In this document: one piece after another, positions 32,345 to 61,746 of the stretch | Layout: every line of letters begins with the position of its first letter | How positions within the stretch are numbered: the stretch's first letter is position 1 | Source: an uncultured Roseateles sp. | GTDB taxonomy: Bacteria; Pseudomonadota; Gammaproteobacteria; Burkholderiales; Burkholderiaceae | Length of the DNA stretch: 64,000 bases | Assembly: GCA_946480605.1 (NCBI GenBank) | Contig: CAMLKW010000001.1 | Coordinates: 14,253 to 78,252 of the forward strand | Direction of reading: 5' to 3' | Made by a program: the position numbers and the translations under genes | The notes under the pieces: generated by a model | Told to the model about the DNA's origin: nothing | The model's input: the letters and a program-made list of their open reading frames with translations, nothing else | The model's database searches: none

Positions 32345-32351
32345 GACAACC

Positions 32352-34247: not shown

Positions 34248-34294
34248 TGGGGCCCGATGCGAGCCGACTCAAGGTATTTGGTAGCCTGCCGCCG

Positions 34295-44074: not shown

Positions 44075-44087
44075 GGTGGGCCTGCGC

Positions 44088-46705: not shown

Positions 46706-46772
46706 ATGCTAGAAAGCGGGGTGATGCTCGACCAATGAGATTTTTTGCGCAATAGATATCAGTTTCGAGATG
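46706..46772 (-). promoter_or_regulatory. Locus promoter 1 (before ytfQ-like gene)
   Basis: On the minus strand: -10-like TAGCAT (46711-46706), 18-base spacer, -35-like TTGGTC within TCATTGGT (46738-46731). Twenty-two bases before that box begins GATATC (46760-46755) and 34 bases before it CATCTC (46772-46767). The same layout is found before three other operons (57616, 52354, 61680). The 13-mer AATAGATATCAGT (46751-46763) differs by one base from one at 57673-57685. Confidence 0.65.
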
Positions 46773-46789
46773 TCTGACGGCGGGGGCGC

Positions 46790-48409
46790 TCAGGCGATGC
46801 GCAGCACATAGGCCGGCAGCGCCGCGACCCCGCCGGCCGGCAGCTGCACCTCCAGGCCGTCGTCCCGCTGCTGGAAGCGCAGCGCCTGGGCGCCGCCCAG
46901 CAGGTCGACGCGCTGCACCGGCCGGTGCCGGCCGCGCGCCAGGCTGCGGATCAGCGCCCGGTCGCCGTCCGGCGCCGCAAAGCCGCTGGCAAAGACGAGG
47001 TCACCGCGTGCGGTGAAGCGGAAGTCGGCGGCGCCCAGCGGCGCGCCCTTGCCTTCGTTGAAGCCCTGGGCCGTCAACGGGGCCTGCTTGTCCATCGCGG
47101 GGCCCTCGCCGAACACGCGCCAGGGGCGGGTGCCGTAGATGCTCTCGCCGTGCCTCTGCATCCAGACGCCGATGGCCTCGACCACGCGCCGCTCGACCGC
47201 GTCGATGCTGCCGTCGCCCTTGACCGGCACGTTCAGCAGCAGGTTGCCGTTCTTGCTGACCACGTCGATCAGCATGCGGATGACCGTCTCGGCGGACTTG
47301 TACTGGCCGCGCTCCAGCACGCGCCTGTCATAGTGCCAGGCGCCCAGGCAGGTGTCGGTCTGCCAGGGCAGCGGCTCGATGCCCTGCGCCTGACCGCGCT
47401 CGATGTCCCACACCATGGCGCGGCGCTGCTGCTCGTCCAGGATCTTGCCGAACAGCACGGCCTGGGTGCGGCCGGTCTTGTCGAGGTGCTGGTTGTAGAG
47501 GTGGGCGGCGATGTCCAGGCCCACCGGGCTGACGGGCCACAGCGGCAGCGCGGTGTCGTCGAAATAGACCAGCTCGGGGCGGTGCTGGTCCAGCAGGTCC
47601 AGCGTGCGGGCCAGGAAGTTTCGGCAGTAGGCCTCGCTGGGCCGGCTGGCGCCCTCGCCCCAGTCCCATTGGCGGTGGATGGCCTTGGGGTCGTGGGCGT
47701 CGGCGCTGGGGGCATGGTCCTGCGCATACAGCTGCTGCGGGTCCAGGCCGTCCCACCACTGGCCGCGGCCGTCTTCCTTGCGCAGGCGGCCGTCGTAGGG
47801 CACGCCGGCCAGCGGACCTTGGGTGTCGGCGCGCTGGGCCGGTTCGTACCAGGTCCAGGCGTGCGCCGCGTGCACGCTGACGCCCAGCGGCAGGCCCTGG
47901 GCGCGGGCGGCGGCGGCCCAGCGCTTGATGATGTCCTGCTTCGGTCCGATGCGCGTCGAGTTCCACGCATGGTGGCGGCTGGCGAACAGGTCGAAGTTGT
48001 CGTGGTGGTTGGCCATCGCCATGAAGTAGCGCGCGCCGGCCTGCTTGTAGAGCCCCAGCAGCTCCTCGGGCTCCCAGCGCTCGGCCTTCCAGTCGCGGAT
48101 GACCTCCTTGAAGCCATAGACCGACGGGTGGCCGTAGGTGGCGACGTGGTGGCGGTTCTTGGCGCTGCCCTCGATGTACATCTCGCGCGCGTACCAGTCG
48201 CCAAACTCGGGCTGGCACTGCGGTCCCCAGTGCGCCCAGATGCCGAACTTGGCGTCACGGAACCAGTCGGGGGTCTGGTAGGTCGTCAGCGAATCCCAGC
48301 TCGGCCGGAAGGCGCCGCGCGGGGCCGCGGGCGCCGTTTGGGCCCAGGCCGGCAGCGCCGCCGCGGGCATGAGGGCGGACAACTGCTGCAGGACTTGTCT
48401 TCTCTTCAT
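46790..48409 (-). CDS. GH29 alpha-L-fucosidase-like enzyme, exported
   Basis: 539 residues. Twin-arginine style leader MKRRQVLQQLSALMPAAALP, cleavage near AWAQ. GH29 features: PDWFRDAKFGIWAHWGPQCQ, ARYFMAMANHHDNFDLFASR, WNSTRIGPKQDIIKRWAAAA, nucleophile region LVYFDDTALP (first Asp after YF), and LIDVVSKNGNLLLNVPVKGD. It would release alpha-L-fucose (or alpha-L-galactose) from pectin or xyloglucan side chains. It is third in an operon with GH43 and GH127 genes and ends 110 bases before the ytfQ-like start. Confidence 0.92.
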   Translation of the reverse strand: MKRRQVLQQLSALMPAAALPAWAQTAPAAPRGAFRPSWDSLTTYQTPDWFRDAKFGIWAHWGPQCQPEFGDWYAREMYIEGSAKNRHHVATYGHPSVYGFKEVIRDWKAERWEPEELLGLYKQAGARYFMAMANHHDNFDLFASRHHAWNSTRIGPKQDIIKRWAAAARAQGLPLGVSVHAAHAWTWYEPAQRADTQGPLAGVPYDGRLRKEDGRGQWWDGLDPQQLYAQDHAPSADAHDPKAIHRQWDWGEGASRPSEAYCRNFLARTLDLLDQHRPELVYFDDTALPLWPVSPVGLDIAAHLYNQHLDKTGRTQAVLFGKILDEQQRRAMVWDIERGQAQGIEPLPWQTDTCLGAWHYDRRVLERGQYKSAETVIRMLIDVVSKNGNLLLNVPVKGDGSIDAVERRVVEAIGVWMQRHGESIYGTRPWRVFGEGPAMDKQAPLTAQGFNEGKGAPLGAADFRFTARGDLVFASGFAAPDGDRALIRSLARGRHRPVQRVDLLGGAQALRFQQRDDGLEVQLPAGGVAALPAYVLRIA

Positions 48410-48428
48410 GCGGACCCCGGGGTTGGAT

Positions 48429-50783
48429 TCAGCGCAGCAGCCGCAGGCCGTACAGGCCACCGGCCACGCTGCCCGGCTTGGCCACGAACTTCACGCTGAG
48501 CTTGCCGCCGGCAGCGCGCACCAGGTCCTGCGGCAGCTCGAAGTCGCGCGTGTAGATGGCTTCCTGGCCGGCGTCGGACGCCAGCTCGATGTCGGCGACC
48601 GGCTGGCCGTTGACGAGCAGCTCGAAGCGGCGGCCGTTGTCGCGCGTGGAGAAGCTCAGGCGCAGCACGCGGGCCTCGGATTTCGCGTCGTTCAGCTCGT
48701 AGCTGAACCACTTGCGCGCGTGCCGCCAGCGGCCGGCCGGTGCGATGCCGCTCTCGGCGCCATCACCCTTGAAGAAGTGGTCGGACTCAGGCTGCTGCTC
48801 GCCGGGTGCCACCTGGTCGATGGTGATGGCATCCAGCGCCAGCCGGGCCTGCTCGGACTGGGCCAGCTCGGCGCGCATCAGGCTCTGCTGGGCGGGCGTG
48901 GAGCGGCCCCAATAGAGCATGTAGCGCGAGTCATGCAGGCGGAAGAAGGGGATGAGCTGCAGCTTCTCTTCACCCTTGGCGCCCTGGATCAGCCCCGGCG
49001 CCGTGAAGGTCAGCGGCTGACCCGGCACGGGCTTGAAGCGGCGGATGAAGTCATCCTTGTCGCTGACGAACACCGGCGCAGCCTCCTGCGGGCACACGGC
49101 GCCGTGCGCGATATGGCCCATGCGGGACGCGTCGGCGCGGAAGTTCAGCGTCTCGCCCGGCTGCGGCGTCTTGGCCGCCAGCACGATGGGGCCGTGCAGC
49201 ACGGCGACAAACTTCTTCAGGCCGTGCAGCGGCTCCAGCGTCGTGCGCATGGGCAGTTCCACATCGACGGTGTCGCCGGTCTTCCACGCGCGCTTCAGTT
49301 CCACGAAGCCACCGGGCCGGGCCTTCACCTTGACCGGCTTGCCGTTGAGCTTCACTTTCAGCGCGCCGGGCGCCACCCAGCCGGGATAGCGGACCTTCAG
49401 CGCGAACATGCCGGCGCCGTCCACCGTCAGCCGCGTGCGCGACTCGTCGGGGAAGCGGGTGGATTGCGTGAGCTTGATGCCGCGCTCGCGCCAGTCCAGC
49501 GTGGAGGCGATGAACAAATTCACCTGCAGCGCATCGCCGTCGTGCGCATAGATGAACTCGCCATGGCGAGCATGGCTCTCGATGCCGGAGCCCACGCAGC
49601 ACCACATGCCGTCGTGCACCTGCGAGTAGACGCGGTAGTGCTGCGGCCGCATCGGCGTGAAGTAGACGAAGCCGCCCTGCGGGTGCTGGGACGCGAGGAT
49701 GTGGTTGTAGAGCGTGCGCTCGTAGTAGTCGGCGTAGGCGCCCACCTGCGGCGACGCCTGGGCCAGCAGCGCCGTCAGCTTCAGCATGTTGTAGCTGTTG
49801 CAGGTCTCCGGGCCTTCCACCTCGTTCAGCATGGGCTTGAAGTCGGTGTCGGGGTGGAAGTGCTCCTTCACGCTGTTGCCGCCGATGGCGACGGAGCGCT
49901 TGTCCACCACCGTGCGCCAGAAGAACTCGGCCGCCTGGCGGCCCTCGTCCTCGCCGGTGAGCTGAGCGATGCGCGCGAAGCCGATGACCTTGGGGATCTG
50001 CGTGTTGGCGTGCAGGCCGGTTAGCTTGTCCTGGCCGCTGGCCAGCGGCTGCAGGATGGCCTGGTGCGAGAAGCGCCGCGCCAGCGCCAGGTAGCGCAGG
50101 TCGCCGGTCATCTGCGACACGTCGGCCAGCACCTCGTTCATGCCACCGTGCTCGGCACGCAGCATGTCCTGCATCTGCGCGTCGGACAGCGGCGTGGTCA
50201 GCCGCAGCGCCCAGTCGGACAGCTTGACCAGCATGGCCTTGGCATCGGCATTGCCGGTGTAGACCCAGGCATCGCGCAGGCCCGCGAAGACCTTGTGGAT
50301 GTTGTACCAGGGCACCCAGCGGCCGTTGACCGAGAAGCTGTCCACCTTGAGCCGGCCCGCCGCGACGTCGGCCCAGGCCTTGGCGCCGTCGGGCACGCCG
50401 CCGATGTAGCCGGTGCCCAAAGCGTCCTGGCAGCGCTTCAGCTCGGCGATGGCGTAGTCCAGCTTCTGCCGGGCCTGCGCATCACCGGTGGACGCCACCA
50501 TCAGCGCCAGCGCCGACAGGTAGTGGCCGCCCATGTGACCGTCCAGGCCCGTGGACTCCCAGTTGCCGTAGGTGGGCGACTTGGCCGGCAGACCGGCTTC
50601 GCGCAGGAAGGGCGCGAGCAGCTTGTCGGCGTCCAACGCCATCAGGTAGTTCAGGTCCGTGTCCTGCGCGGCCTTGAACGGGCCATCCAGCAGGCGCACG
50701 CGCTCCAACGCAAACAGCTGCGTCGCCGCGCCGGCGCTGTGGGCACAGACCACGAGGGCCAGCGAGGCAAGCAGCTTTCTCAC
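48429..50783 (-). CDS. GH127/GH146 beta-L-arabinofuranosidase, exported
   Basis: 784 residues; signal peptide of about 19 (SLALVVCAHSAGA). The former DUF1680 barrel is unmistakable: NYLMALDADKLLAPFLREAG, HMGGHYLSALALMVASTGD, and the zinc-thiolate set Glu326 and Cys328 (EVEGPETCNSYNM) with Cys395-Cys396 (MWCCVGSGIESHARHGEFIY). In the Bifidobacterium enzyme HypBA1 the first Cys of the pair is the nucleophile. A long C-terminal extension (about 600-784) with a beta-sandwich resembles GH146 members. It removes beta-linked arabinofuranose from RG-II or hydroxyproline-type chains. Two bases separate it from the GH43 gene upstream. Confidence 0.94.
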   Translation of the reverse strand: MRKLLASLALVVCAHSAGAATQLFALERVRLLDGPFKAAQDTDLNYLMALDADKLLAPFLREAGLPAKSPTYGNWESTGLDGHMGGHYLSALALMVASTGDAQARQKLDYAIAELKRCQDALGTGYIGGVPDGAKAWADVAAGRLKVDSFSVNGRWVPWYNIHKVFAGLRDAWVYTGNADAKAMLVKLSDWALRLTTPLSDAQMQDMLRAEHGGMNEVLADVSQMTGDLRYLALARRFSHQAILQPLASGQDKLTGLHANTQIPKVIGFARIAQLTGEDEGRQAAEFFWRTVVDKRSVAIGGNSVKEHFHPDTDFKPMLNEVEGPETCNSYNMLKLTALLAQASPQVGAYADYYERTLYNHILASQHPQGGFVYFTPMRPQHYRVYSQVHDGMWCCVGSGIESHARHGEFIYAHDGDALQVNLFIASTLDWRERGIKLTQSTRFPDESRTRLTVDGAGMFALKVRYPGWVAPGALKVKLNGKPVKVKARPGGFVELKRAWKTGDTVDVELPMRTTLEPLHGLKKFVAVLHGPIVLAAKTPQPGETLNFRADASRMGHIAHGAVCPQEAAPVFVSDKDDFIRRFKPVPGQPLTFTAPGLIQGAKGEEKLQLIPFFRLHDSRYMLYWGRSTPAQQSLMRAELAQSEQARLALDAITIDQVAPGEQQPESDHFFKGDGAESGIAPAGRWRHARKWFSYELNDAKSEARVLRLSFSTRDNGRRFELLVNGQPVADIELASDAGQEAIYTRDFELPQDLVRAAGGKLSVKFVAKPGSVAGGLYGLRLLR

Positions 50784-50784
50784 A

Positions 50785-52317
50785 TCAAGCTCCGGTGCGG
50801 ATGGCCCACAGCGACACGCCGCCGGCAGACAGGGCGGACAAGCTCACGACGAAAGCACTCGCGTTGGTATTCCACTGCCGGGACAGTACGCCCGAATAGG
50901 TCACGCCGCCGCTCACCACGCTGAGTTTGTTGCCGCCCTTGTGTGTCCAGGTGCCGGTCATGCCACCGGTCACCGAACCGTCCGCGTTCAGCGTCACGTT
51001 GATGGACGCCTTGGGCGCGGCGGCGATGTCCTTGCCGTGGTTGACCAGCTTGTACGCGCCGGCCGCCTGCGTGGCGCTGACGTCGGCCGTCTGCGCCGGC
51101 GTGGCCAGGCTCAGCGGCGCATAACGCAGCGGCGCGATGACCGGCCAGCCGTCCTCGTTGATGTGCATCTCGTGCGTGCGGATCTCGTGCGCCTCGCCGG
51201 TGCCGGGGAAGCGCGTGTGGAAGATCATGAAGTACTGCTTGGTCGCCGTGTCGTAGCAGGCCGAGTTGTGGCCGGGCGAGATGTAGCCCAGCGCAGTGCC
51301 GGTCTCGCCGGTGGCGTTGGCGAACTGGTGCGCGCCCATCAGCTTCATGCCGTGCGGCGTGATGCTGGCGTCGTCGAACACCGTGCCGGTCGCGCCCTTG
51401 ACGGTGGACATGTCCTTGCCGGCGCCGTCCACATAGGGGCCGTCGGGGTTGCGCGAGCGCGCCACGCGCACGTTGTAGCCGCCGTCCGTGCCGGCGCCCA
51501 GGCCGCCGAACGAGACGAACAGGTAGTAGTACTGCGACTCGGGGCTGTACAGGATGTAGGCGCCCTCGATGCGCGCATGGTTGCCGCCCATCAGGTGCTT
51601 GCCATACCCCTGGCCGGCCAGCGGCACGCCCGTCGTCGCGTTGAGCTGCAGGATGAAGATACCGCCCGAGTACGAGCCGTAGACCATCCACAGCCTGCCC
51701 GTCGCGTCGGCGAACACGGCCGGGTCCACCGCGTTGGGATGCTTGGTGGCGTCGTAGACGCTGCCGTCTTCGCTGGGCAGGCCCCACATGCCGGACTTCA
51801 GCAGGATCTGCTTGTTGACGTAGGGGCCGTCCACCTTGTCGGCCACGGCGATGCCCAGCGCCGAGCGCGGCGAGTCGCCCTTGCAGGCGCAGTAGTACAT
51901 GTAGAACTTGCCGTCCGCGAGCCTGGTCACGTCGGGCGCCCACAGCGTCGTCGTCTCGGCCCAGGCCAGCGTCTCGGCCAGCTCGGTGGTCACCTTGTTG
52001 CCGAAGATGGGATTGGCGTTGTTGACGCCGTCGCCGATCTTGGTCCAGTTCATCAGGTCGGGCGTCTTGGCCGCGGCCAGGTGGGAGCCGAACACGTAGA
52101 ACTGGCCGTCGGCCTTGATGACGGAGGGGTCATGCACCGACGCATTGGCGAAGTTGACCGGCGCCTGCGACGGAGCGGGCGCTGGGGCAGGAGCTGGCGC
52201 CGGGGCAGGGGCCGGGCTGGGCGAAGGTGCGGGGCTGCTGCCGCCGCCGCCGCCGCAGGCGCTCAGGGCGAGCGCGGCCGAGCCGGCGAGGAAGTCGCGG
52301 CGCTTGTGAATGGCCAT
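50785..52317 (-). CDS. Tat-exported lipoprotein GH43 endo-arabinanase
   Basis: 510 residues. The N-terminus KRRDFLAGSAALALSAC joins a twin-arginine motif to a lipobox (Cys21), then a Gly run and a Pro-Ala repeat linker (about 28-53). The GH43 domain starts at ASVHDPSVIKADGQFYVFGS (base Asp63), has HPNAVDPAVFADATGRLWMV and HARIEGAYILYSPESQYYYL, and HNSACYDTATKQYFMIFHTR. A C-terminal domain of about 100 residues (GAYKLVNHGKDIAAAP onward) matches the small beta-barrel of Bacillus Abn2-type endo-1,5-alpha-L-arabinanases. Anchored to a membrane, it would start backbone cleavage. First gene of its operon. Confidence 0.92.
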   Translation of the reverse strand: MAIHKRRDFLAGSAALALSACGGGGGSSPAPSPSPAPAPAPAPAPAPAPSQAPVNFANASVHDPSVIKADGQFYVFGSHLAAAKTPDLMNWTKIGDGVNNANPIFGNKVTTELAETLAWAETTTLWAPDVTRLADGKFYMYYCACKGDSPRSALGIAVADKVDGPYVNKQILLKSGMWGLPSEDGSVYDATKHPNAVDPAVFADATGRLWMVYGSYSGGIFILQLNATTGVPLAGQGYGKHLMGGNHARIEGAYILYSPESQYYYLFVSFGGLGAGTDGGYNVRVARSRNPDGPYVDGAGKDMSTVKGATGTVFDDASITPHGMKLMGAHQFANATGETGTALGYISPGHNSACYDTATKQYFMIFHTRFPGTGEAHEIRTHEMHINEDGWPVIAPLRYAPLSLATPAQTADVSATQAAGAYKLVNHGKDIAAAPKASINVTLNADGSVTGGMTGTWTHKGGNKLSVVSGGVTYSGVLSRQWNTNASAFVVSLSALSAGGVSLWAIRTGA

Positions 52318-52353
52318 GGGGATGTCTCCGGGTCTGTGTGTTCTGGCGGGCGC

Positions 52354-52420
52354 AGCCTAGGGGCCATGGCCGCGGCGCACCAATGACATTGCAGGCGCGG
52401 TTGATCCCGGTTTTGATATG
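52354..52420 (-). promoter_or_regulatory. Locus promoter 2 (before lipoprotein arabinanase)
   Basis: Minus strand: -10-like TAGGCT (52359-52354), 18-base spacer, TCATTGGT (52386-52379) supplying -35 TTGGTG. At the two fixed upstream distances are GGGATC (52408-52403) and CATATC (52420-52415). The 12-mer ACCAATGACATT on the plus strand matches ACCAATGAGATT before the ytfQ-like gene at 11 of 12 positions. Confidence 0.6.
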
Positions 52421-52518
52421 CCGCGTGCGGATCACGCGCGCAGCGCAAGGCCTGGGCGAGCAGCATGGCGGGCCCAGGCCTGGTCAGGTCGGCAAAAGGC
52501 GCCTGCCGTGCGGGGCGA

Positions 52519-54057
52519 TCAGCCCTCGACGGCCACGACGACGATGGACTTGGCCGGCAGCTTGATCGTCAGCTTGCCGTTGACCGACTGCGCCTCGAAG
52601 GCGGTCGGCACCACCTGCGGCGCCTTGCCCAGCTCGTTCTGCGCATCCATCGCACCGGCGGTCAGCAGCTGGCCCTTGACGGCCTTGGGAGCGTTCGCGC
52701 CCAGCTGCAGGTCCAGCTCGGCGGCCTGCGTGGCGTTGGCGTTCACCAGGCCCACCCAGACCTTGCCGTCCTTGCCGCGGCCGGCCGTGACGCTCAGGCC
52801 CGGCATCTCGAACTTGTCGACCTTGTAGGTCGGGTTGTTCTCGACCTTGACAGGCAGCGAGGTCGCGTCCTGGAAGGGGATGTAGAGCTTGAACGCGTGG
52901 TAGGTCGGCGTCAGCACCAGCTTGTCCTTGCTGGTGAGGATCATGGCCTGCAGCACGTTGACCATCTGGGCCACGTTGCTCATCTGCACGCGCTCGGCGT
53001 GGCTGTGGAACACGTTGAAGTGCAGGGCGGCCAGCAGCGCGTCACGCAGCGTGTTGCGCTGGACAAGGAAGCCGGGGTTGCTGCCGGGCTCGGGGTCGTA
53101 CCAGCTGCCCCACTCGTCGAAATACAGCGCGATCTTCTTCTGCGGGTCGTTCTTGTCGAGGATGACCTTGCTCGCGGCCAGCACGTCGTCGATCTTCTTG
53201 ACCTGCGACAGCATGGAGATCCATTCGCTCTCCGGGAAGCCAGCCGCCGCGCCCTTGGTTTCCCACTTGCCGCTGGGGAAGGTGTAGGCGTGGTGGGCGA
53301 TCGCGTCGATGTTGTGCTTGACCTGCTTGCTCAGCACGTCGGTCCACGTCGTGTCGCGGTCGTTGCCGCCGCTGGCAATGAACTTGGGACGGTTGTGCGC
53401 CGGGGTCTTCAGGAAGGTGGCCCAGTGGCGGTACAGGTCGGCGTAGTACTCGGGCCGCATGTTGCCGCCGCAGCCCCAGGTCTCGTTGCCCAGCGCGTAG
53501 TAGTGGACGCGGAAGGGCTTGTCGCGGCCGTTCTTGCGGCGCTGCTCGACGATGGTGGCATTGCCCTCGCCGGTCATGTATTCCAGCCATTCGGCCGCTT
53601 CCTGCGGCGAGCCGGTGCCCATGTTGGCGTTCACGTAGGCCTCGGCGCCCAGCTGCTCGACCAGGTCGAAGAACTCGTGCGTGCCGACGGCGTTGTTCTC
53701 GGGCACGCCACCCCAGTGGGTGTTGACCTTGACCGGGCGCTTGTTGCGCGGGCCGATGCCGTCGCGCCAGTGGTATTCGTCGGCGAAGCAGCCGCCGGGC
53801 CAACGCACCAGCGGCACCTTCAGGTCCTTCAGTGCCGCGACGACGTCCTTGCGCCAGCCACGCACGTTGGGGATCTTGGACTCGGGGCCCACCCACATGC
53901 CTTCGTAGATGCCGGTGCCGAGATGCTCGGCGAACTGGCCATAGATGTTGCGGTGGATGACCGGGCCGGGCTGGTCGGCGCTGACGACGACCTTGATGTC
54001 GGCGGCCTGGGCGGCCAGGGCCAGCATCGCCGTCACGGCGAGCAGTTGCTTCTTCAT
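52519..54057 (-). CDS. Exported GH51 alpha-L-arabinofuranosidase
   Basis: 512 residues from ATG 54057 preceded by AGGAGACA; signal peptide of about 19 (LLAVTAMLALAAQAA). GH51 landmarks: IYGQFAEHLGTGIYEGMWVG, VRWPGGCFADEYHWRDGIGP, acid/base Glu192 in YALGNETWGCGG, nucleophile Glu315 in LYFDEWGSWY. It is a different branch from the cytoplasmic GH51 at 29880 (lower resemblance and altered loops), giving one enzyme per compartment. It follows the dehydrogenase gene after 153 bases containing two hairpins, and has 201 bases of promoter DNA after it. Confidence 0.94.
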   Translation of the reverse strand: MKKQLLAVTAMLALAAQAADIKVVVSADQPGPVIHRNIYGQFAEHLGTGIYEGMWVGPESKIPNVRGWRKDVVAALKDLKVPLVRWPGGCFADEYHWRDGIGPRNKRPVKVNTHWGGVPENNAVGTHEFFDLVEQLGAEAYVNANMGTGSPQEAAEWLEYMTGEGNATIVEQRRKNGRDKPFRVHYYALGNETWGCGGNMRPEYYADLYRHWATFLKTPAHNRPKFIASGGNDRDTTWTDVLSKQVKHNIDAIAHHAYTFPSGKWETKGAAAGFPESEWISMLSQVKKIDDVLAASKVILDKNDPQKKIALYFDEWGSWYDPEPGSNPGFLVQRNTLRDALLAALHFNVFHSHAERVQMSNVAQMVNVLQAMILTSKDKLVLTPTYHAFKLYIPFQDATSLPVKVENNPTYKVDKFEMPGLSVTAGRGKDGKVWVGLVNANATQAAELDLQLGANAPKAVKGQLLTAGAMDAQNELGKAPQVVPTAFEAQSVNGKLTIKLPAKSIVVVAVEG

Positions 54058-54135
54058 CGACTTGTCTCCTAGGTTGTTGATCTGGCCTCTTCGGGCCGAG
54101 CGCCGGGCCGCCCCAAGCCGGCCCGTCTGGCGATG

Positions 54136-54160
54136 TGCAGGCCGGTCAATCCGGCCTGCA
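54136..54160. promoter_or_regulatory. Intercistronic hairpin
   Basis: TGCAGGCCGG-TCAAT-CCGGCCTGCA, a perfect 10-bp stem with a five-base loop, between the dehydrogenase and GH51 genes. No T run follows on either strand, so attenuation or RNA-end stabilisation is more likely than factor-independent termination. Confidence 0.55.
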
Positions 54161-54176
54161 TCGCCGTCCCCTCGGG

Positions 54177-54207
54177 GGACCGGCCAAGGCAAAGCCTTGG
54201 ACGAGGG
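54177..54207. repeat. Short dispersed repeat, copy 2
   Basis: GGACCGGCCAAGGCAAAGCC followed by TTGGACGAGGGG; contains the hairpin CCAAGGC-AAA-GCCTTGG. Related to 8065-8095. It ends four bases from the dehydrogenase stop codon. Confidence 0.45.
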
Positions 54208-54210
54208 GTA

Positions 54211-55797
54211 TCAATTCCGCGTCAGGGCTCCATCCCGACGACGCCACACGCCGCGTTCATTCGGCTCGCGCAACACTGCGGGAAGCAGCGCACGCGGCAG
54301 GTTCTGGTAGCTGACCGGGCGCAGGAAGCGCTGGATGGCAGCGGTACCGACGGAGCTGCTGCGGCCGTCGCTGGTGGCCGGGAAGGGGCCGCCGTGGACC
54401 ATGGCCGTCGAGACCTCGACGCCGGTGGGGAAGCCGTTGGCCAGGATGCGGCCGACCTTGCGCTCCAGCGCCGGCAGCAGCGCGCGGGCGATGGCGATGT
54501 CGGCCTCGTCGTCGTCCTGCAGTTGCAGCGTGGCGGTCAGCTGGCCTTCCAGGCCCTCGATGACGGCCAGCAGTTCGGCCTCGTCCTGGCAGGCGACCAG
54601 CAGCGACGCCGGGCCGAAGATCTCGGACTGCATGGCGTGGTTGGCCAGGAAGGCAGCGCCCGTGGTCTTGAACAGGCTGGGCGCGCCGGTGCAGGCGGCG
54701 GACTGGCCGCGCAGCAGCGCGTCCACCTGCGGCTGGCCGGCCAGCGCCGCCTCGCCGCGCTGGTAGGCGCCGGCGATGCCGGGCGTCAGCATGGTGGCGG
54801 CGGGCACGGGCTTGAGCGCCTCGGCGGCGGCGGTCGCGAAGCGATCGAAATCGGCACCCGCGATGCCCAGCACCAGGCCGGGGTTGGTGCAGAACTGGCC
54901 CACGCCCATCGTCAGCGAGCCGGCGAAGCCGGTGGCGATCTCCGCGCCGCGCTTGGCGAGCGCGCCGGGCAGCAGGATGGTGGGGTTGATGCTGCTCATC
55001 TCGGCATAGACCGGAATGGGCTGCGGACGGGCTGCGGCCACGGCCATCAGCGCCAGGCCGCCGGCCCGCGAGCCGGTGAAGCCCACGGCCTGGATGGCGG
55101 GGTGCTTCACGAGCGCCGTGCCGATGTCGTTGCCGTTGCCGGGCAGCAGCGCGAACACGCCGGCGGGCAGCTTGGACAGCTTGACCGCCTCGATGACCGC
55201 GCGGCCGACCAACTCGGACGTGCCGGGGTGGGCCGGGTGGCCCTTGACGACGACGGGGCAGCCTGCAGCCAGCGCGGCGGCGGTGTCGCCGCCGGCGACC
55301 GAGAAGGCCAGCGGGAAGTTGCTGGCGCCGAACACGGCGACGGGGCCCACGCCGATGAAGCGCAGACGCAGGTCGGGCCGCGGCGGCGTGCGCGTGGGCA
55401 GCGCGGTGTCGATGCGGGCGTCCTGCCAGCTGCCTTCGCGCAGCAGTTCGGCGAACAGCTTCAGCTGGTTCATCGTGCGGCCCCGCTCGCCTTCCAGGCG
55501 GGCACGCGGCAGGCCGCTCTCGGCCATGGCGCGGACGATGAGGTCGTCGCCCAGCGCCAGGATCTGCGCGGCGATCTGCTCCAGGAAGTCGGCACGCTCG
55601 TGGTCGGTCGTCGCGCGGAAGGCATCGAACGCGGCGTTGGCCAAGTTGCAGGCCTGCTCGACCTGGGCCGTGTCCACCGAATGGAAATCGGGGCCGAGGG
55701 CGGCGTTCTTGCTGGGGTCGAACCCCTGGAAGGCGGCGCCGTTGCCGCGCACGGCCTCACCACCGATCAGGGCGAGGCCTTGGATCGCGTTGCTCAT
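54211..55797 (-). CDS. 2-oxoglutarate semialdehyde dehydrogenase (ALDH family)
   Basis: 528 residues of the NADP-type ALDH subgroup: substrate/cofactor loop FGASNFPLAFSVAGGDTAAA (Asn160), Lys185 in VVVKGHPAHPGTSEL, Glu266 in VYAEMSSINP, catalytic Cys303 in GQFCTNPGLV. The FPLAFSVAGGDTAAALAAGC text is diagnostic for ketoglutarate semialdehyde dehydrogenases (called AraE in Azospirillum) and fatty-aldehyde relatives. It finishes L-arabinose oxidation by making 2-oxoglutarate. Twelve bases separate it from the arabonate dehydratase upstream, so the pair is an operon. Confidence 0.92.
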   Translation of the reverse strand: MSNAIQGLALIGGEAVRGNGAAFQGFDPSKNAALGPDFHSVDTAQVEQACNLANAAFDAFRATTDHERADFLEQIAAQILALGDDLIVRAMAESGLPRARLEGERGRTMNQLKLFAELLREGSWQDARIDTALPTRTPPRPDLRLRFIGVGPVAVFGASNFPLAFSVAGGDTAAALAAGCPVVVKGHPAHPGTSELVGRAVIEAVKLSKLPAGVFALLPGNGNDIGTALVKHPAIQAVGFTGSRAGGLALMAVAAARPQPIPVYAEMSSINPTILLPGALAKRGAEIATGFAGSLTMGVGQFCTNPGLVLGIAGADFDRFATAAAEALKPVPAATMLTPGIAGAYQRGEAALAGQPQVDALLRGQSAACTGAPSLFKTTGAAFLANHAMQSEIFGPASLLVACQDEAELLAVIEGLEGQLTATLQLQDDDEADIAIARALLPALERKVGRILANGFPTGVEVSTAMVHGGPFPATSDGRSSSVGTAAIQRFLRPVSYQNLPRALLPAVLREPNERGVWRRRDGALTRN

Positions 55798-55809
55798 GAA
55801 TTCAAACCT

Positions 55810-57564
55810 TCAATGTGAATGGCGCGGGACGGCCGAGCCGCGACAGCCGCGCAGGAAATCAAAATCGCAGCCCTCGTCGGCCTGCAGCACGTGCTGCACG
55901 TAGAGGTGGCGATAGCCGGTGGCGTCGGCCGGGTCCACGGTCTGTGCGGCGGCCCAGGCTTCGAGACGCTTCGCGAGCTCTTCCTCGGGCACGTCCAGGT
56001 GCAGGCGGCCGGCAGCGCAGTCCAGCTCGATGAAGTCGCCTTCCTGCACGACGGCCAGCGGGCCGCCGGCGCGGGCTTCGGGCGCCACGTGCAGCACGAC
56101 GGTGCCGTAGGCGGTGCCGCTCATGCGGGCGTCGGAGATGCGCACCATGTCCTTCACGCCGGTGGCGAGGATCTTGGGCGGCAGGCCCATGTTGCCGACC
56201 TCGGCCATGCCGGGGTAGCCCTTGGGGCCGCAGTTCTTCATGACGAGGATGCAACTGGCGTCGACGTCCAGGTCGGGGTCGGCGATGCGGGCCTTGTAGT
56301 CGTCGAAGTTCTCGAACACGACGGCGCGGCCGCGGTGCTTCATCAGCTCGGGCGTCGCGGCCGAGGGCTTGAGCACGGCGCCGCGCGGCGCGAGGTTGCC
56401 GCGCAGGATGCAGATGCCGCCGTCTTCGATCAGCGGCTTGTCCAGCGGGCGGATGACCTCTTCGTCGTAGATGGGCGCATCGTGGCAGTTGTCCCACAGG
56501 CTCTTGCCGTTGACGGTCAGCGCGCCGGGGTTGGGCACCAGGCCGGCTTCGCCCAGGCGGCGGATGACGCCCGGCAGGCCGCCGGCGTAATAGAACTCTT
56601 CCATCAGGAAGCGGCCCGAGGGCAGCAGATCCACGACGGTGGGCGTGCCGCGGCCGATGCGGGTCCAGTCTTCCAGCTCCAGGTCCACGCCGATGCGGCC
56701 GGCGATGGCCTTCAGGTGGATGACGGCGTTGGTGGAGCCGCCGATGGCCGCGTTGACGCGGATGGCGTTCTCGAAGGCTTGCTTGGTCAGCACCTTGGAC
56801 AGGCGCAGGTCTTCCCACACCATGTCGACGATGCGCATGCCGGACAGATGCGCCAGCACATAACGGCGCGCGTCGACGGCGGGAATGGCGGCGTTGTGCG
56901 GGAGGGACGTGCCCAGCGACTCGGCCATGCAGGCCATCGTGGACGCGGTGCCCATGGTGTTGCAGGTGCCGGCCGAGCGCGAGTGGCCGGCCTCGGCGGC
57001 CAGGAAGTCGTGCATCTTGATCTCGCCGGCCTTGACCTGCTCGTGCAGCTGCCACACGGCCGTGCCCGAGCCGATGTTCTTGCCGTTGAGCTTGCCGTTC
57101 AGCATCGGGCCGCCGGTGACGACGATGGCCGGCACGTCCACGCTGGCCGCGCCCATCAGCAGCGCGGGCGTGGTCTTGTCGCAGCCGACCAGCAGCACGA
57201 CGGCGTCGATGGGGTTGCCGCGGATGCTCTCTTCCACGTCCATGCTGGCGAGGTTGCGCGTCAGCATGGCGGTGGGGCGCAGATTGCTCTCGCCGTTGGA
57301 GAACACCGGGAACTCGACGGGGTAGCCGCCGGCTTCGAGGATGCCCTTCTTCACATGCTCGGCGAGCTTGCGGAAGTGGGCGTTGCAAGGCGTCAGCTCG
57401 CTCCAGGTGTTGCAGATGCCGATGATGGGCTTGCCCTGGAACTCATGATCCGGGATGCCCTGGTTCTTCATCCAGGAGCGGTACATGAAACCGTTCTTGT
57501 CCTGGGTGCCGAACCACTCGGCCGAACGCAGCTTGACCTTGCTCTTCTTGTCCTCAGTCGTCAT
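55810..57564 (-). CDS. L-arabonate dehydratase (IlvD/Edd family)
   Basis: 584 residues. The iron-sulphur ligands are Cys60 (ELTPCNAH), Cys128 (LLVGCDKTTPALL) and Cys201 (SAGTCNTMG), each offset by one from those of the characterised Rhizobium L-arabinonate dehydratase as I remember it. RSWMKNQGIPDHEFQGKPII near the start, the base-serine region SDARMSGTAYGT and the ending DFDFLRGCRGSAVPRHSH are features of the sugar-acid branch rather than of IlvD proper. It converts L-arabonate to 2-keto-3-deoxy-L-arabonate (EC 4.2.1.25), step three. Promoter elements lie at 57616-57682. Confidence 0.93.
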   Translation of the reverse strand: MTTEDKKSKVKLRSAEWFGTQDKNGFMYRSWMKNQGIPDHEFQGKPIIGICNTWSELTPCNAHFRKLAEHVKKGILEAGGYPVEFPVFSNGESNLRPTAMLTRNLASMDVEESIRGNPIDAVVLLVGCDKTTPALLMGAASVDVPAIVVTGGPMLNGKLNGKNIGSGTAVWQLHEQVKAGEIKMHDFLAAEAGHSRSAGTCNTMGTASTMACMAESLGTSLPHNAAIPAVDARRYVLAHLSGMRIVDMVWEDLRLSKVLTKQAFENAIRVNAAIGGSTNAVIHLKAIAGRIGVDLELEDWTRIGRGTPTVVDLLPSGRFLMEEFYYAGGLPGVIRRLGEAGLVPNPGALTVNGKSLWDNCHDAPIYDEEVIRPLDKPLIEDGGICILRGNLAPRGAVLKPSAATPELMKHRGRAVVFENFDDYKARIADPDLDVDASCILVMKNCGPKGYPGMAEVGNMGLPPKILATGVKDMVRISDARMSGTAYGTVVLHVAPEARAGGPLAVVQEGDFIELDCAAGRLHLDVPEEELAKRLEAWAAAQTVDPADATGYRHLYVQHVLQADEGCDFDFLRGCRGSAVPRHSH

Positions 57565-57615
57565 GTCTTGTCTCGGAGTCGTTCTGACAGCGCGCGGGAA
57601 TTCCGCCTGAATTTG

Positions 57616-57682
57616 ATGCTAGGCGCGGGGGGAATTGCAATCCAATCAATTTCCGCCGTGTACCGATATGGAAATTGATATC
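57616..57682 (-). promoter_or_regulatory. Locus promoter 3 (before arabonate dehydratase)
   Basis: Minus strand: -10-like TAGCAT (57621-57616), 18-base spacer, TGATTGG (57648-57642) giving -35 TTGGAT. Upstream at the fixed distances: CATATC (57670-57665) and GATATC (57682-57677). In addition ATCAATTTCC (57645-57654) and GGAAATTGAT (57670-57679) form a perfect 10-bp inverted repeat with 15-base spacer. The distal half-site overlaps the last codons of the GH43 gene ending at 57681. Confidence 0.7.
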
Positions 57683-58634
57683 AGTCGTACCGTGAGGGCC
57701 TGCCGAACAGCGGCATGCCCTCATCGCTCCACCGCATGGGCTTCACGAAGGTATGGCGGTCGGGGTTCCACAGCGGGTCGCCCTCGATCTCGGTGTAGGT
57801 GCGGGCGTGATAGACCAGCAGCACCTCATCGGACGAGCGGCCTTCGGTGAAGCTGTTGTGGCCGGGACCGAAGACGCTGTCTTCGGCGCAGCTGCGCATC
57901 ACCGGCTCGGGCGACTTGTGCCAGCTGGCCGGGTCCAGCAGGTCGGCGTTCTCGTCGGCCCACAGCAGGCCCATCGCGTAGTTCTCGTCCGTCGCGCTGG
58001 CGGAGTAGCTGATGAAGACCTTGCCGTGGCGCTGCAGCACCGACGGCCCCTCGTTGACCAGGAAGCCGCGGCATTCCCAGTCGAACTCGGGCTTGCTGAG
58101 CATGACCGGCGCGCCGGCCAGCTGCCAGGGCGTGCTCATCGGCGCGATGTAGAGGTTGGAGTTGCCGGCGATGGCCGGGTCCTTCTGCGCCCACAGGTAG
58201 TAGAGCTGGCCGCGATGGGTGAAGGTGGTGGCATCGAGACAGAAGCTGTCGATGCCGCTGTCCACCTGGCCCAGGAACTCCCATGCACCGGTGAAAGGGT
58301 CGGCCGCCGTATTGCGGATCGCATACATGCGGTGCTGGAACATGCCCAGATGGTCCAGCGCCCGGGTGTGGGCCGCCGCGAAGTAGACGTACCAGGCGCC
58401 TTGGTTGAAATGCAGCTCGGGCGCCCAGATCAGCTCGGACCAGGGTCCCGTGTCGGGCTTGCGCCAAGCGACGAAGGCCGGCGCGTCCACCAAGCCCTGG
58501 ATCGTGGACGCTCGGCGCAGTTCGATGCGGTCGTACTGCGGCACCGAGGCGGTGAAGTAGTACAGGCCGTCGGCGTGGTGGCTGATGTGGGGATCGGCGC
58601 GCTGGCGGATCAGCGGCTCAAGCAGGTCGGACAT
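57681..58634 (-). CDS. Cytoplasmic GH43 exo-arabinofuranosidase-like enzyme (paralogue)
   Basis: 317 residues from ATG 58634; no signal peptide. LIRQRADPHISHHADGLYYF gives base Asp14, then YFTASVPQYDRIELRRAST, SFCLDATTFTHRGQLYYLWA and FLVNEGPSVLQRHGKVFISY supply the other carboxylates. This is the GH43 subfamily 26 pattern and parallels the enzyme at 31403 along its whole length (FGPGHNSF, VYHARTY). It would act on imported arabino-oligosaccharides. It follows the TonB receptor gene, with a terminator-like hairpin between them, so its expression may be a fraction of the receptor's. Confidence 0.9.
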   Translation of the reverse strand: MSDLLEPLIRQRADPHISHHADGLYYFTASVPQYDRIELRRASTIQGLVDAPAFVAWRKPDTGPWSELIWAPELHFNQGAWYVYFAAAHTRALDHLGMFQHRMYAIRNTAADPFTGAWEFLGQVDSGIDSFCLDATTFTHRGQLYYLWAQKDPAIAGNSNLYIAPMSTPWQLAGAPVMLSKPEFDWECRGFLVNEGPSVLQRHGKVFISYSASATDENYAMGLLWADENADLLDPASWHKSPEPVMRSCAEDSVFGPGHNSFTEGRSSDEVLLVYHARTYTEIEGDPLWNPDRHTFVKPMRWSDEGMPLFGRPSRYD

Positions 58635-58650
58635 GGGTACAGCGGCGGAT

Positions 58651-58690
58651 AAGAAAAAAGGGCGTTGCCCGGGAGGCCCGTGCAACGCCC
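58651..58690 (-). terminator. Factor-independent terminator/attenuator after TonB receptor
   Basis: On the minus strand GGGCGTTGC (58690-58682), 13-base loop, GCAACGCCC (58668-58660), directly followed by TTTTTTCTT (58659-58651). A 9-bp GC-rich perfect stem plus T run is the classical intrinsic terminator. It ends the receptor transcript 31 bases after its stop and 17 bases before the GH43 start, so it must attenuate the downstream gene if they share a promoter. Confidence 0.85.
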
Positions 58691-58720
58691 GCAACGAGGA
58701 AGAGTTTCAGCCTCGCAGGA

Positions 58721-61588
58721 TCAGAGCTTCCAGCGGAACCCGACCGACACCGAGCGGCCGGTCTGCACCGTACCAAAGTTGGTCAACTCGGGGCTGCCCG
58801 CGTCGCCGAACTTGTAGTACTGCTGCTGCATCTCGTTCGTCAGGTTGACGCCGCTGATGTCCAGCGCCATGCGGTCGTTGATGTTGTAGGTCAGCTGGAA
58901 GTCCACGCTCTTCTCCGGCTGGCGCCAGATGCCGATCGGGTTGGCGAACAGCGCGGCTTCGTTGGCGGCCAGGAAGGCGGCGCGACGAACGTAGGACAGG
59001 CGTGCGCCGACCGGGCCCTTCTCGTAGGCCAGCGTGGCGTTCCACGACAGCTTGGACACGCCGAAGAACGGCGCTTCGAGCTGCGACACGATCTCGCCGG
59101 CGTTGTTGGCGGTCGGCACGTTCTGCGACGAGGTCAGGCGGGTCACGCTGCCCTGGAAGCCCAGGCCGTCCAGATACCACGGCAGATTCTTCGGGAAGTA
59201 GATCGCGCCAAGTTCGAGGCCGCTGATCTTGCCGTTGGAGGCGTTGACCGGCGAGCTGATGACGTAGTCGTAGCCATTGGTGTGATCGCCGCCCGAGGTG
59301 GAGTTGCGGAACGGATCGTTGGCCGGGTCGACGTGGATGCGGCGGCGCAGCGGCACGACCAGACCCTCGATCTTGCGCTGGAACACGGTGCCGTACAGCG
59401 CACTGTCCTTCTGGAAGTACCACTCGCCCGTCAGGTCCAGGTTCTTGGAGCGGGTGGGCTCCAGGCCCGGGTTGCCGCCGCTGCCGCCGCCGTAGCCGAC
59501 GCGGGAGACGTCGTCGCTGAGCTGCAGCACCGGGTTCAGATCGCCGAAGCCCGGGCGGCGCAGCGTTTCACCGTAGTTGAAGCGCACCAGCACATCCTTG
59601 GCCGGCTCGTAGCGCAGCGTCAGGCTGGGCAGGAACTTGCGGGCGGTCTTCTCGCCGAACTTCGGCGTCGCGACCTTGGTGGTGGCGTTGACGTCGTAGG
59701 CGGTCATGTGGGTCTTGACCTGCACATAGCGCACGCCGAAGTTGGCGCGCAGCGAGCGGCCGAACAGCTGGTGCTCAGAGTCGGCCATCAGGAAGGCGTT
59801 CGTCGTGTCTTCCTTGACCTGGAAGGTCTTCTGCAGGTACAGCTTGTCGGTCGTCAGGAAGTTCGCATCGACCGAGTTGTAGAGCTTGCGCCAGGCGTCC
59901 ACGTTGTCGCGGATGTAGTAGGCGTTGGGCTCGATCCAGGAGCGCGGCACGTCGGAGATGTCGGTGCCGAAGCCCGAGTTGACGTGGTAGTAGTCCGCGC
60001 CCAGCGAGGCCAGGTTGCGGCCCAGGAAGGCCGACTGCGTGCGGTTGGCTTCCGACGCCTTGCGGCTGTCGAAGCGCACGCCGAAGTTCAGCGTCTTCAC
60101 GGGACCCCAGTCGAGGTCGTACTGGCCGTTCAGGCTGGCCGTGCCCGCGCTGCCCTCATTGCGGTTGGCGTTGTCGTAGAACTGCGCGACGTTCCACTTG
60201 GTGGGGTCGGTCAGGTCGGCGTTGTTGTTGTTGAACTTGAACGCCATGTTGCCGCCGCCGGCATTGAAATCGACGGTGATCTGCGGCGCGACGCGGTCGA
60301 TGCGGGTGGCGGTGAATTCCGAGTGGAACTTGCTGGTCTGGTACGAGATGTCACCGTCCAGGCGCAGGCGGTCACCCAGGTTCCACTTGCCGTTCAGCGC
60401 GTAGACGTAGGAGTCGGTGGCCGACGTGAGGTAGTCGCCGCTGTTGAAGGCGTAGACGTCGTTGACGACGCGCGTCTTGATGACGTTGGTGCCCGGGAAG
60501 GTCGTGATCGTGCTGGCCGGGTTGGCGCCGAGGTTGCCCCACCAGTCGGCAAAGCTGAACAGCAGCTTGGTGAAGGCCTTGTCGCGGTAGCCGTTGTACA
60601 TCGCCTCGAAGGTGTACTCGGCGTCATCGTTGGGCTTCCATTGCAGCGCCAGGTTGGCGGCGGGGCGCTCGCGCTGGCCCGCCACGTCGGCCTGGAACAC
60701 GGCGTCACGCGCCAGGTAGTAGGGGCGCTGCGTGCCGCCGAAGTTCAGCGTCGAGCCGGCCTTCTGCGGCAGGCCGGTGTAGGTGCCGGGCGTCCAGACG
60801 TTGTTGTCGAAGATGCGCTGCAGCGGCGTGTAGCCCGCCGGCTGTTCCGAGGCATTGGGGCTGGTGAACGGCACCATGGCGCCCGGCGTCACGCTTTCGT
60901 TGCGGTAGTCGGTCTTGACCATCGACAGGTTGACCAGCGCACCGATGTCGCCGATGTCGGTCTTCCAGCGGTTGCTGGCCAGCGCGCTCAGCTGCGGGTT
61001 CCACTTCTCAGCCGGGTCCAGGTAGGTGCCACGTGCCAGCACCGAAAGCCGGGCGCCCTTGAAGTCGAAGGGGCGCAGCGACTTCACGTCGATCTGGCCG
61101 GCAATGCCGTTCTCCAGCTGGCTGGCGTCACGGGTCTTGAAGACGTCGATCTGGCGCACCAGCGTGGAGGGGATGTCCTGCAGCGCGACCTGCGTGCCGG
61201 ACGCGGTGAAGATGTTGCGGCCGTTCCAGGTGGTCGCGATGTCGGGCATGCCGCGGATGGAGATGGCGCCCACCTCGCCGCCGGCGCGGTTCGTGACCTG
61301 GATGCCCGTCACGCGCTGCAGCGCCTCGACGACGTTGTTGTCGGGCAGCTTGCCGATGTCTTCGGCCACCACCGATTCCACGACCTGGTCGTTGGTGCGC
61401 TTGTTCGCCAGGCTCTTGGTCAGCGAAGCCCGGACGCCGGTGACCACCACCGTTTCCAACTCCTTGGCGGCTTCCTGGGCCAGGGCGTGGGTAGACAGGG
61501 CGGCAAGCGCGGCGGCGGCCGTCAGGCGCAGCGCGAAGCGGGAGGTATTGGCGCACGCACGCAGCGGCACCAGGGCTGGTTTGTTCAT
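58721..61588 (-). CDS. TonB-dependent outer-membrane receptor
   Basis: 955 residues. Signal peptide (LRLTAAAALAALSTHALAQ), TonB box ELETVVVTGVRASLTKSLAN, plug domain (about 55-190: VVAEDIGKLPDNNVVEALQR, AISIRGMPDIATTWNGRNIF), then a roughly 750-residue 22-stranded barrel ending SVSVGFRWKL. The VVTGVRASLxxSLxxKR start is typical of the large receptors for plant polysaccharide fragments in Proteobacteria. There is no N-terminal signalling extension for an ECF sigma system and no SusD partner. By position it imports pectic arabinan oligomers. Promoter 4 lies upstream. Confidence 0.95.
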   Translation of the reverse strand: MNKPALVPLRACANTSRFALRLTAAAALAALSTHALAQEAAKELETVVVTGVRASLTKSLANKRTNDQVVESVVAEDIGKLPDNNVVEALQRVTGIQVTNRAGGEVGAISIRGMPDIATTWNGRNIFTASGTQVALQDIPSTLVRQIDVFKTRDASQLENGIAGQIDVKSLRPFDFKGARLSVLARGTYLDPAEKWNPQLSALASNRWKTDIGDIGALVNLSMVKTDYRNESVTPGAMVPFTSPNASEQPAGYTPLQRIFDNNVWTPGTYTGLPQKAGSTLNFGGTQRPYYLARDAVFQADVAGQRERPAANLALQWKPNDDAEYTFEAMYNGYRDKAFTKLLFSFADWWGNLGANPASTITTFPGTNVIKTRVVNDVYAFNSGDYLTSATDSYVYALNGKWNLGDRLRLDGDISYQTSKFHSEFTATRIDRVAPQITVDFNAGGGNMAFKFNNNNADLTDPTKWNVAQFYDNANRNEGSAGTASLNGQYDLDWGPVKTLNFGVRFDSRKASEANRTQSAFLGRNLASLGADYYHVNSGFGTDISDVPRSWIEPNAYYIRDNVDAWRKLYNSVDANFLTTDKLYLQKTFQVKEDTTNAFLMADSEHQLFGRSLRANFGVRYVQVKTHMTAYDVNATTKVATPKFGEKTARKFLPSLTLRYEPAKDVLVRFNYGETLRRPGFGDLNPVLQLSDDVSRVGYGGGSGGNPGLEPTRSKNLDLTGEWYFQKDSALYGTVFQRKIEGLVVPLRRRIHVDPANDPFRNSTSGGDHTNGYDYVISSPVNASNGKISGLELGAIYFPKNLPWYLDGLGFQGSVTRLTSSQNVPTANNAGEIVSQLEAPFFGVSKLSWNATLAYEKGPVGARLSYVRRAAFLAANEAALFANPIGIWRQPEKSVDFQLTYNINDRMALDISGVNLTNEMQQQYYKFGDAGSPELTNFGTVQTGRSVSVGFRWKL

Positions 61589-61679
61589 GTTGTCTCCGGG
61601 ATCGTTTTGGGAGGAGCGGCCAACCTCGACAGCCGTCCCGGCCTCGTCAGGGAGCCGGGTGGAGCTGGGGTCTCAATTC

Positions 61680-61746
61680 ATGCTAGGGGGCCGACTGATC
61701 CCGTACTAATCACATTTTTGGATTTATCGATGCCGCTTTTCGCATC
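61680..61746 (-). promoter_or_regulatory. Locus promoter 4 (before TonB receptor)
   Basis: Minus strand: TAGCAT (61685-61680), 18-base spacer, TGATTAG (61712-61706) giving -35 TTAGTA, then GGCATC (61734-61729) and GATGCG (61746-61741) at the same two upstream distances as in the other three promoters. The run CCCCCTAGCAT closely matches that of promoter 3. The upstream half-sites are the weakest of the four. Confidence 0.6.

Follow-up and report, generated by a model that had tools for sequence, protein, structure and literature searches.

A rigid candidate promoter module before four arabinan-related operons of a Roseateles contig and its probable LysR-type activator

In Agrobacterium, chvE is under the control of the LysR-family regulator GbpR when sugars are present (passages of PMC4086400), and a gbpR-sbpA-arabonate dehydratase cluster is listed for Roseobacter (passages of PMC3141670). 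In Halomonas, another LysR-family protein, AraR, is predicted to control arabinose oxidation genes (passages of PMC5507952), while in Escherichia coli the ytfQ transporter (gafABCD) is controlled by AraC (passages of PMC10191376). PcaQ, the LysR-type regulator associated with protocatechuate, serves aromatic genes. The steps of the non-phosphorylative oxidation of L-arabinose are established.

Here we analysed a 64-kb stretch of DNA from an uncultured Roseateles sp. (the window), in which an earlier note had described one promoter architecture before four operons. Our analysis suggests, with a probability of roughly 85%, that the four promoters are targets of a single LysR-type activator, the GbpR/AraR-like protein encoded at 35062-36045. 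The source DNA is this window, and genome-wide statements rest on genomes of relatives; the nearest homologues of its dehydratase are from Pelomonas (Roseateles group), with 93% identity.

The protein shares its family with GbpR. In Collimonas (L028) and in one further locus (L174), chvE is preceded by a site of the type described below, and each locus also encodes a homologue of the window's LysR. In the window, however, chvE is not among the genes with sites, which encode a receptor, glycosidases, a dehydratase and YtfQ. Seven Halomonas-type LysR homologues found in the loci are 40-42% identical to the window's LysR, but the stretches upstream of their genes score at best 11.8, and no match to the matrix of this study was found upstream of the LysR or dehydratase gene in these seven loci. 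PcaQ is the nearest NCBIfam model (184.7 bits), although this score lies well below the equivalog cut-off of 303.8 (TIGR02424), the inner bases of the sites differ, and sugar genes rather than aromatic genes are concerned here. E. coli has the same type of transporter under arabinose control, but its AraC belongs to the AraC family and not to LysR. The occurrence of chvE, porins and aldose epimerase at sites elsewhere suggests that the LysR belongs to a GbpR/AraR-like branch near PcaQ; it is likened to GbpR by the chvE neighbourhood and not by sequence. The idea that it is GguR was dropped, GguR being a GntR protein in passages of PMC5507952.

Gene series and promoter module in the window

Profile searches revealed that the minus strand between 44 and 61.7 kb carries a single gene series, from the receptor through the sugar transporter, which is given here in its order.

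58721..61588 (-), TonB-dependent receptor, TonB-Xanth-Caul subfamily (TIGR01782, 576.9 bits, cut-off 310)
57681..58694 (-), GH43 glycosidase, open reading frame (ORF) as listed (PF04616)
55810..57564 (-), IlvD/EDD dehydratase, probable L-arabonate dehydratase (PRK06131, 957.5 bits, cut-off 539)
54211..55797 (-), aldehyde dehydrogenase, probable 2-oxoglutarate semialdehyde dehydrogenase (PF00171; substrate suggested by context)
52519..54192 (-), alpha-L-arabinofuranosidase, ORF as listed, real start probably downstream (PF06964)
50785..52317 (-), GH43 endo-arabinanase-like lipoprotein (PF04616; AbnB model 672.9, cut-off 750)
48429..50783 (-), GH127 beta-L-arabinofuranosidase (PF07944)
46790..48460 (-), alpha-L-fucosidase-like protein, GH29 by Pfam family (PF01120)
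45721..46680 (-), YtfQ/GafA-type sugar-binding protein, ATG at 46680 (NF041827, 380.2, below cut-off 510)
44088..45635 (-), YtfR-type sugar ABC ATPase (NF041861, 621.5, below cut-off 850)

With the L-arabinonate dehydratase model, the dehydratase scored 842.8, slightly under the cut-off of 882. Behind ytfQR lie a 1040-aa GH31/PA14/DUF5110 glycosidase ORF (41168-44290, -) and, after it on the same strand, two BPD_transp_2 permease ORFs (40167-41810 and 39202-41205).

A composite element is present at four breaks in this series. Scanning the sequence located the four boxes and both upstream hexamers where the earlier note had placed them: with the initial base of the upstream element as origin, the second hexamer begins at +12, T[CG]ATT[GA]G at +34 and CTAGCAT or CTAGGCT at +60 in all four sites. 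As written in that note the boxes are 19 nt apart, and its gap of 18 bases holds for the hexamers TTGGNN/TTAGNN and TAGCAT/TAGGCT. In the following list, the second score of each dyad was obtained with a matrix trained on 46 sites, all from outside the Roseateles group.

61729..61746 (-), predicted LysR recognition dyad of the TonB-receptor promoter, GATGC-N8-GCATC (57.3 bits; 48.7)
61704..61709 (-), -35 hexamer of the TonB-receptor promoter, TTAGTA (sequence; ATTRG columns conserved in 59 sites)
61680..61685 (-), -10 hexamer of the TonB-receptor promoter, TAGCAT (sequence, 59-site columns)
57665..57682 (-), predicted LysR recognition dyad of the dehydratase promoter, GATATC-N6-CATATC (54.8 bits; 52.1)
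57640..57645 (-), -35 hexamer of the dehydratase promoter, TTGGAT (sequence, 59-site columns)
57616..57621 (-), -10 hexamer of the dehydratase promoter, TAGCAT (sequence, 59-site columns)
52403..52420 (-), weak predicted LysR recognition dyad of the arabinanase promoter, CATATC-N6-GGGATC (22.1 bits; 18.2)
52378..52383 (-), -35 hexamer of the arabinanase promoter, TTGGTG (sequence)
52354..52359 (-), -10 hexamer of the arabinanase promoter, TAGGCT, the weakest (sequence)
46755..46772 (-), predicted LysR recognition dyad of the ytfQ promoter, CATCTC-N6-GATATC (48.5 bits; 46.7)
46730..46735 (-), -35 hexamer of the ytfQ promoter, TTGGTC (sequence, 59-site columns)
46706..46711 (-), -10 hexamer of the ytfQ promoter, TAGCAT (sequence, 59-site columns)

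That such fixed spacing is hard to explain by chance, as had been proposed, is borne out by the window itself. The composite scores of the four minus-strand sites (upstream ends 61746, 57682, 52420 and 46772) are, ranked from the highest, 26, 25, 22 and 21 out of a maximum of 26, and the next-best place in the 64 kb reaches 17. With the non-Roseateles matrix the next-best score in the window is -9.8, and the top score in 60 dinucleotide-shuffled windows was -2.4. The arabinanase site, at 18.2, lies below the best match in the reversed sequence of 91 loci (25.8); its dyad has an aligned copy in a relative (G291, L166). The upstream elements had been called weak at the receptor, whereas the reverse is true: the receptor site has arms that form a perfect inverted repeat and ranks first or second by matrix score, and it is the arabinanase site that ranks last.

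Form and conservation of the element

Alignment columns were derived from 59 non-redundant sites, four of them from the window (63 before removal of sites at least 85% identical to another), and are numbered so that position 1 is the first base of the upstream hexamer; sites too close to locus ends were left out of this set and of the 37-site set used below. The columns describe a rigid module of about 67 bp, consisting of the dyad YGATAYC-RAWWTY-GRTATCR (0-19), an A-tract (29-33), T[GC]ATTGGA (35-42), which contains the -35 element, a GNTATC half-site (45-50) and the -10 element TANNAT (62-67). The -35 hexamer TTGGAN (38-43) and the -10 hexamer are separated by 18 bp, and the half-site, which is merely partial in the window's own sites, lies just downstream of the -35 element. 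If transcription starts 7 nt past the -10 hexamer, the dyad would be centred at about -64.5, so that the module would have the layout of LysR-type promoters, with a dyad near -65 at a constant distance from the promoter.

The upstream arms, which had been taken for half-sites of a tandem spaced by 12 bp, are better read from their sequence as an inverted repeat, YGATAYC-N6-GRTATCR, whose inner form ATAYC-N6-GRTAT spans 16 bp. GATATC is its own reverse complement, so perfect copies fit either reading and degenerate copies discriminate between them. In 37 non-redundant sites chosen by the core promoter alone (46 before those at least 85% identical were dropped), column divergence summed over six pairs was 0.10 for the inverted and 0.93 for the direct arrangement. 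Over the 59 sites, the arms match at 273/354 positions as a dyad and at 231/354 as a direct repeat. Within the window, the receptor site (GATGCG/GGCATC) has five of six matches as a dyad and one of six as a tandem, whereas the other three sites do not discriminate (5 and 5, 3 and 3, 4 and 4). Covariation of the arms within sites is weak (p = 0.0095, 0.78 and 0.93 for pairs 4-15, 5-14 and 6-13 in the 59 sites; p = 0.079, 0.37 and 0.70 in a repeat test, with p = 0.027 for pair 1-18). The centre of the element is asymmetric, positions 9-10 being AA or TT in 52/59 sites and complementary in 5/59, and complementarity there falls below that of shuffled columns (19 sites versus 26.8 for pair 8-11, 5 versus 28.6 for pair 9-10). 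Given this weak covariation and asymmetric centre, the case for the dyad rests on the mirrored column frequencies of the arms.

The fixed spacing is conserved in orthologous loci. Counts were made over the window and 91 loci that exceed 5 kb, 13 of which had been fetched on account of sites or LysR. Pairs of dyad and box were found 78 times at the expected offset versus at most seven at any other, and pairs of box and -10 element 79 times versus at most five. The dyad also follows the core promoter where it played no part in the selection. The window and the 80 loci that had been retrieved with the dehydratase protein amount to 1.63 Mb, and a search of these with the core alone gave 46 matches, of which 41 have all five invariant dyad bases, five have four and none has fewer. 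BLAST matches shorter than 120 residues were dropped from the homologue searches, and those shorter than 200 from this core-promoter test. In 28 of the 80 loci, including those of Massilia, Duganella, Undibacterium, Ralstonia and Paraburkholderia, the dehydratase gene is preceded by a site of 20 bits or more, and the remaining 52 loci score at most 15.

Nor did the motif appear at many unrelated genes in close relatives. With at most one mismatch, the strict pattern has exactly three matches in each of four close genomes, all in the arabinan cluster, and none in the reversed control. Genome G010 has six matches, two of which (L138 and L175) could not be linked to arabinose genes; the one in L138 (2173698) is without mismatch and may be due to chance, and that in L175 (1537, -) is a 49.2-bit site ahead of a gene with a lipoprotein-like start. 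A loose dyad-plus-box pattern with up to three mismatches was uninformative, giving 63-77 matches per genome.

The LysR-type protein and alternative readers of the sites

Two regulator genes stand side by side on the plus strand of the window; a GH97 glycosidase gene (32259-34247, +) lies immediately ahead of them.

35062..36045 (+), LysR-type regulator, GbpR/AraR-like, proposed activator of the four promoters (PF00126, PF03466, comparison)
34247..35047 (+), GntR/FCD regulator, disfavoured as reader of the sites (locus comparison)

The first has both domains of the LysR family, the helix-turn-helix domain HTH_1 (PF00126, 67.6 bits) and the substrate-binding domain (PF03466, 114.2 bits). As the earlier note had proposed, this protein is the best candidate for the activator, as judged by divergent adjacency and by co-occurrence with the motif, and its role as the regulator of the four sites is well supported by these comparisons. 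In other genera, the gene for a LysR homologue has a divergent site of at least 24 bits immediately upstream in 12 of 15 loci where the homologue is at least 49% identical, versus none of eight where it is 39-43% identical. The weakest of the 12 (L034) scores 24.1, which is near background, as reversed sequence reaches 25.8 under a matrix that differs slightly. A Paraburkholderia plasmid has the LysR gene flanked by two operons, one for an aldehyde dehydrogenase and chvE (site 56.6) and one of ytfQ type (site 19.0). In the window and its close relatives, some 8-130 kb separate the LysR gene from the sites (in G430 it is on a different contig), and the matrix scan found no site at the LysR gene itself. 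In L015 (8855-8922), a perfect dyad (GATATCGATTTCGATATC) stands upstream of the LysR gene without the promoter part and is possibly autoregulatory. No site was found in the locus of an Azospirillum homologue (43%, L178). One LysR relative (P0111) is annotated by its source as a galactose-binding protein.

Genome samples gave a concordant picture. In a sample of the order, the strict motif occurs in 8/150 genomes, all of them within the ten whose LysR match reaches E <= 1e-85. The two of these ten that lack it are G153, with a one-mismatch site beside the LysR gene, and G115, with no match free of mismatches. In a sample of the family, it occurs in 7/299 genomes, exactly the seven with a LysR of 82-96% identity, and is absent from one genome with a 76% LysR gene containing an in-frame stop and from 49 with a LysR of 51-59%; weaker forms (24.1, 39.2, 32.5 and 56.6) are present in loci of other records whose LysR identity is similar. 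Fisher tests of motif against LysR gave p of about 1e-11 and 3e-14 for the order and family samples, values that overstate independence because the genomes share ancestry. For each genome, scoring covered the best 7 or 14 first-look candidates, with a pattern derived from sites of the same order. Within the fetched loci, which are short, a dehydratase site accompanies a LysR of at least 50% identity in 7/13 cases and occurs in 21/67 of the others, not a significant difference (p = 0.20).

The neighbouring GntR/FCD protein, directly upstream of the LysR, might instead read the sites as a repressor. The two genes adjoin in the window and in four close genomes, and in Halomonas control of arabinonate genes is predicted for AraR2, a GntR-family protein (passages of PMC5507952). 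However, five loci (L014, L017, L028, L053 and L056) have sites beside LysR homologues but yielded no such GntR, and GntR is anti-correlated with the sites, a dehydratase site being present in only 2/22 GntR loci (p = 0.003), both of which also have the LysR. The position of the dyad, at about -65 and not across the promoter itself, would moreover suit an activator, and we regard the GntR reading as very unlikely. Even less probable is control by another LysR, a paralogue of 43-47% identity (e.g., G001 C31, L127). It belongs to the same family and was found in three of four close genomes searched, and two genomes of the order sample (G026 and G148) carry the motif although their best LysR is 50 and 47% identical. 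Against this, no site lies near the paralogue (best score -18.3 in L127-L129), and in the family sample the strict motif tracks the 82-96% orthologue and is absent where the best LysR is at the level of the paralogue. In L127, the paralogue gene (47%, 1432 on) stands near ORFs that by eye resemble a sugar ABC permease and a short-chain dehydrogenase, and it is motif-less.

The conservation of the ATTGG and -10 parts, which equals that of the dyad in the 59 sites, would also be expected if the sites were a promoter class of a special sigma factor, with no regulator involved. The dyad, however, accompanies all 46 core matches, the -35 and -10 elements resemble sigma-70 hexamers with an 18-bp spacer, and there are just three matches per genome in four genomes, which together leave this idea with little credit. 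Chance resemblance or a duplicated intergenic cassette might be invoked because the -10 boxes alone are not enriched in the window (three CTAGCAT versus 2.36 expected, one CTAGGCT versus 2.81) and the arabinanase site is weak. This is contradicted by the shuffled windows and by conservation across genera, and by flanking sequences that have no relation to one another (identity at 29-41 of 120 positions), which rules out a copied cassette; we give this explanation almost no weight.

Regulon content, proposed mechanism and meaning

Activation of the four promoters by the LysR-type protein, the reading that we prefer, would work as follows. A LysR dimer would sit on the dyad, centred at about -64.5, and a second dimer would contact the GNTATC half-site just past the -35 element, with the A-tract making bending easier. 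Binding of an inducer, most likely L-arabinose or one of its oxidation products, would shift the complex, which would then recruit the sigma-70 polymerase. A shift of the complex and recruitment of polymerase are the general model of LysR action. Passages of PMC5002191 describe this activation model in part. Uptake by the TonB receptor, hydrolysis of arabinan and arabinosides, import by ytfQR and non-phosphorylative oxidation of L-arabinose (dehydratase, aldehyde dehydrogenase) would thus be switched on jointly.

The name arabinan regulon holds in part. Its four operons do share a promoter type, but outside this group the name is too narrow. In other genomes, the first genes after the sites examined encode Gram-negative porins, LamB, ChvE (565 and 552 bits, above the curated cut-off of 460), aldose 1-epimerase, aldehyde dehydrogenase, a DHDPS-family protein, TonB receptors and YtfQ, a set which by its annotation fits uptake and non-phosphorylative oxidation of L-arabinose. 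Two complete sites 137 bp apart were seen upstream of a sugar-transporter region in loci of two genomes (L028, 5482 and 5619, with ChvE; L172, 4867 and 5004).

Sites also come and go between relatives. The arabinanase gene has no site and follows closely behind the arabinofuranosidase gene in L001, L002, L165, L167 and L018, whereas in the window and G291 there is a gap with a site ahead of it. Likewise, ytfQ is without a site and close behind the preceding gene in L165, L166 and L168, and L167 retains a -10-like remnant. As siteless genes follow closely and gapped genes have sites, the promoters stand at operon breaks in the relatives examined. It may be, with the odds evenly balanced, that one LysR has kept a rigid module across Burkholderiales while its regulon changed use: in the Roseateles and Massilia groups, a regulon for taking up monosaccharides (porin, ChvE) would have turned to foraging on polysaccharides (TonB receptor, arabinanases), whole modules arising or vanishing at operon breaks.

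No published description of the motif was present among the literature matches listed, RegPrecise and most subscription papers lying outside the search. As predicted from sequence, the regulon is real, small, clearly delimited, testable and of a known kind, with candidate activator-type promoters. For arabinan foraging in one group of soil bacteria, the analysis provides a candidate regulator, a precise predicted motif and a short list of genes. A rigid module available from many genomes would suit the study of LysR activation from about -65, and it would also suit the study of how a regulon shifts from a sugar to its polymer.
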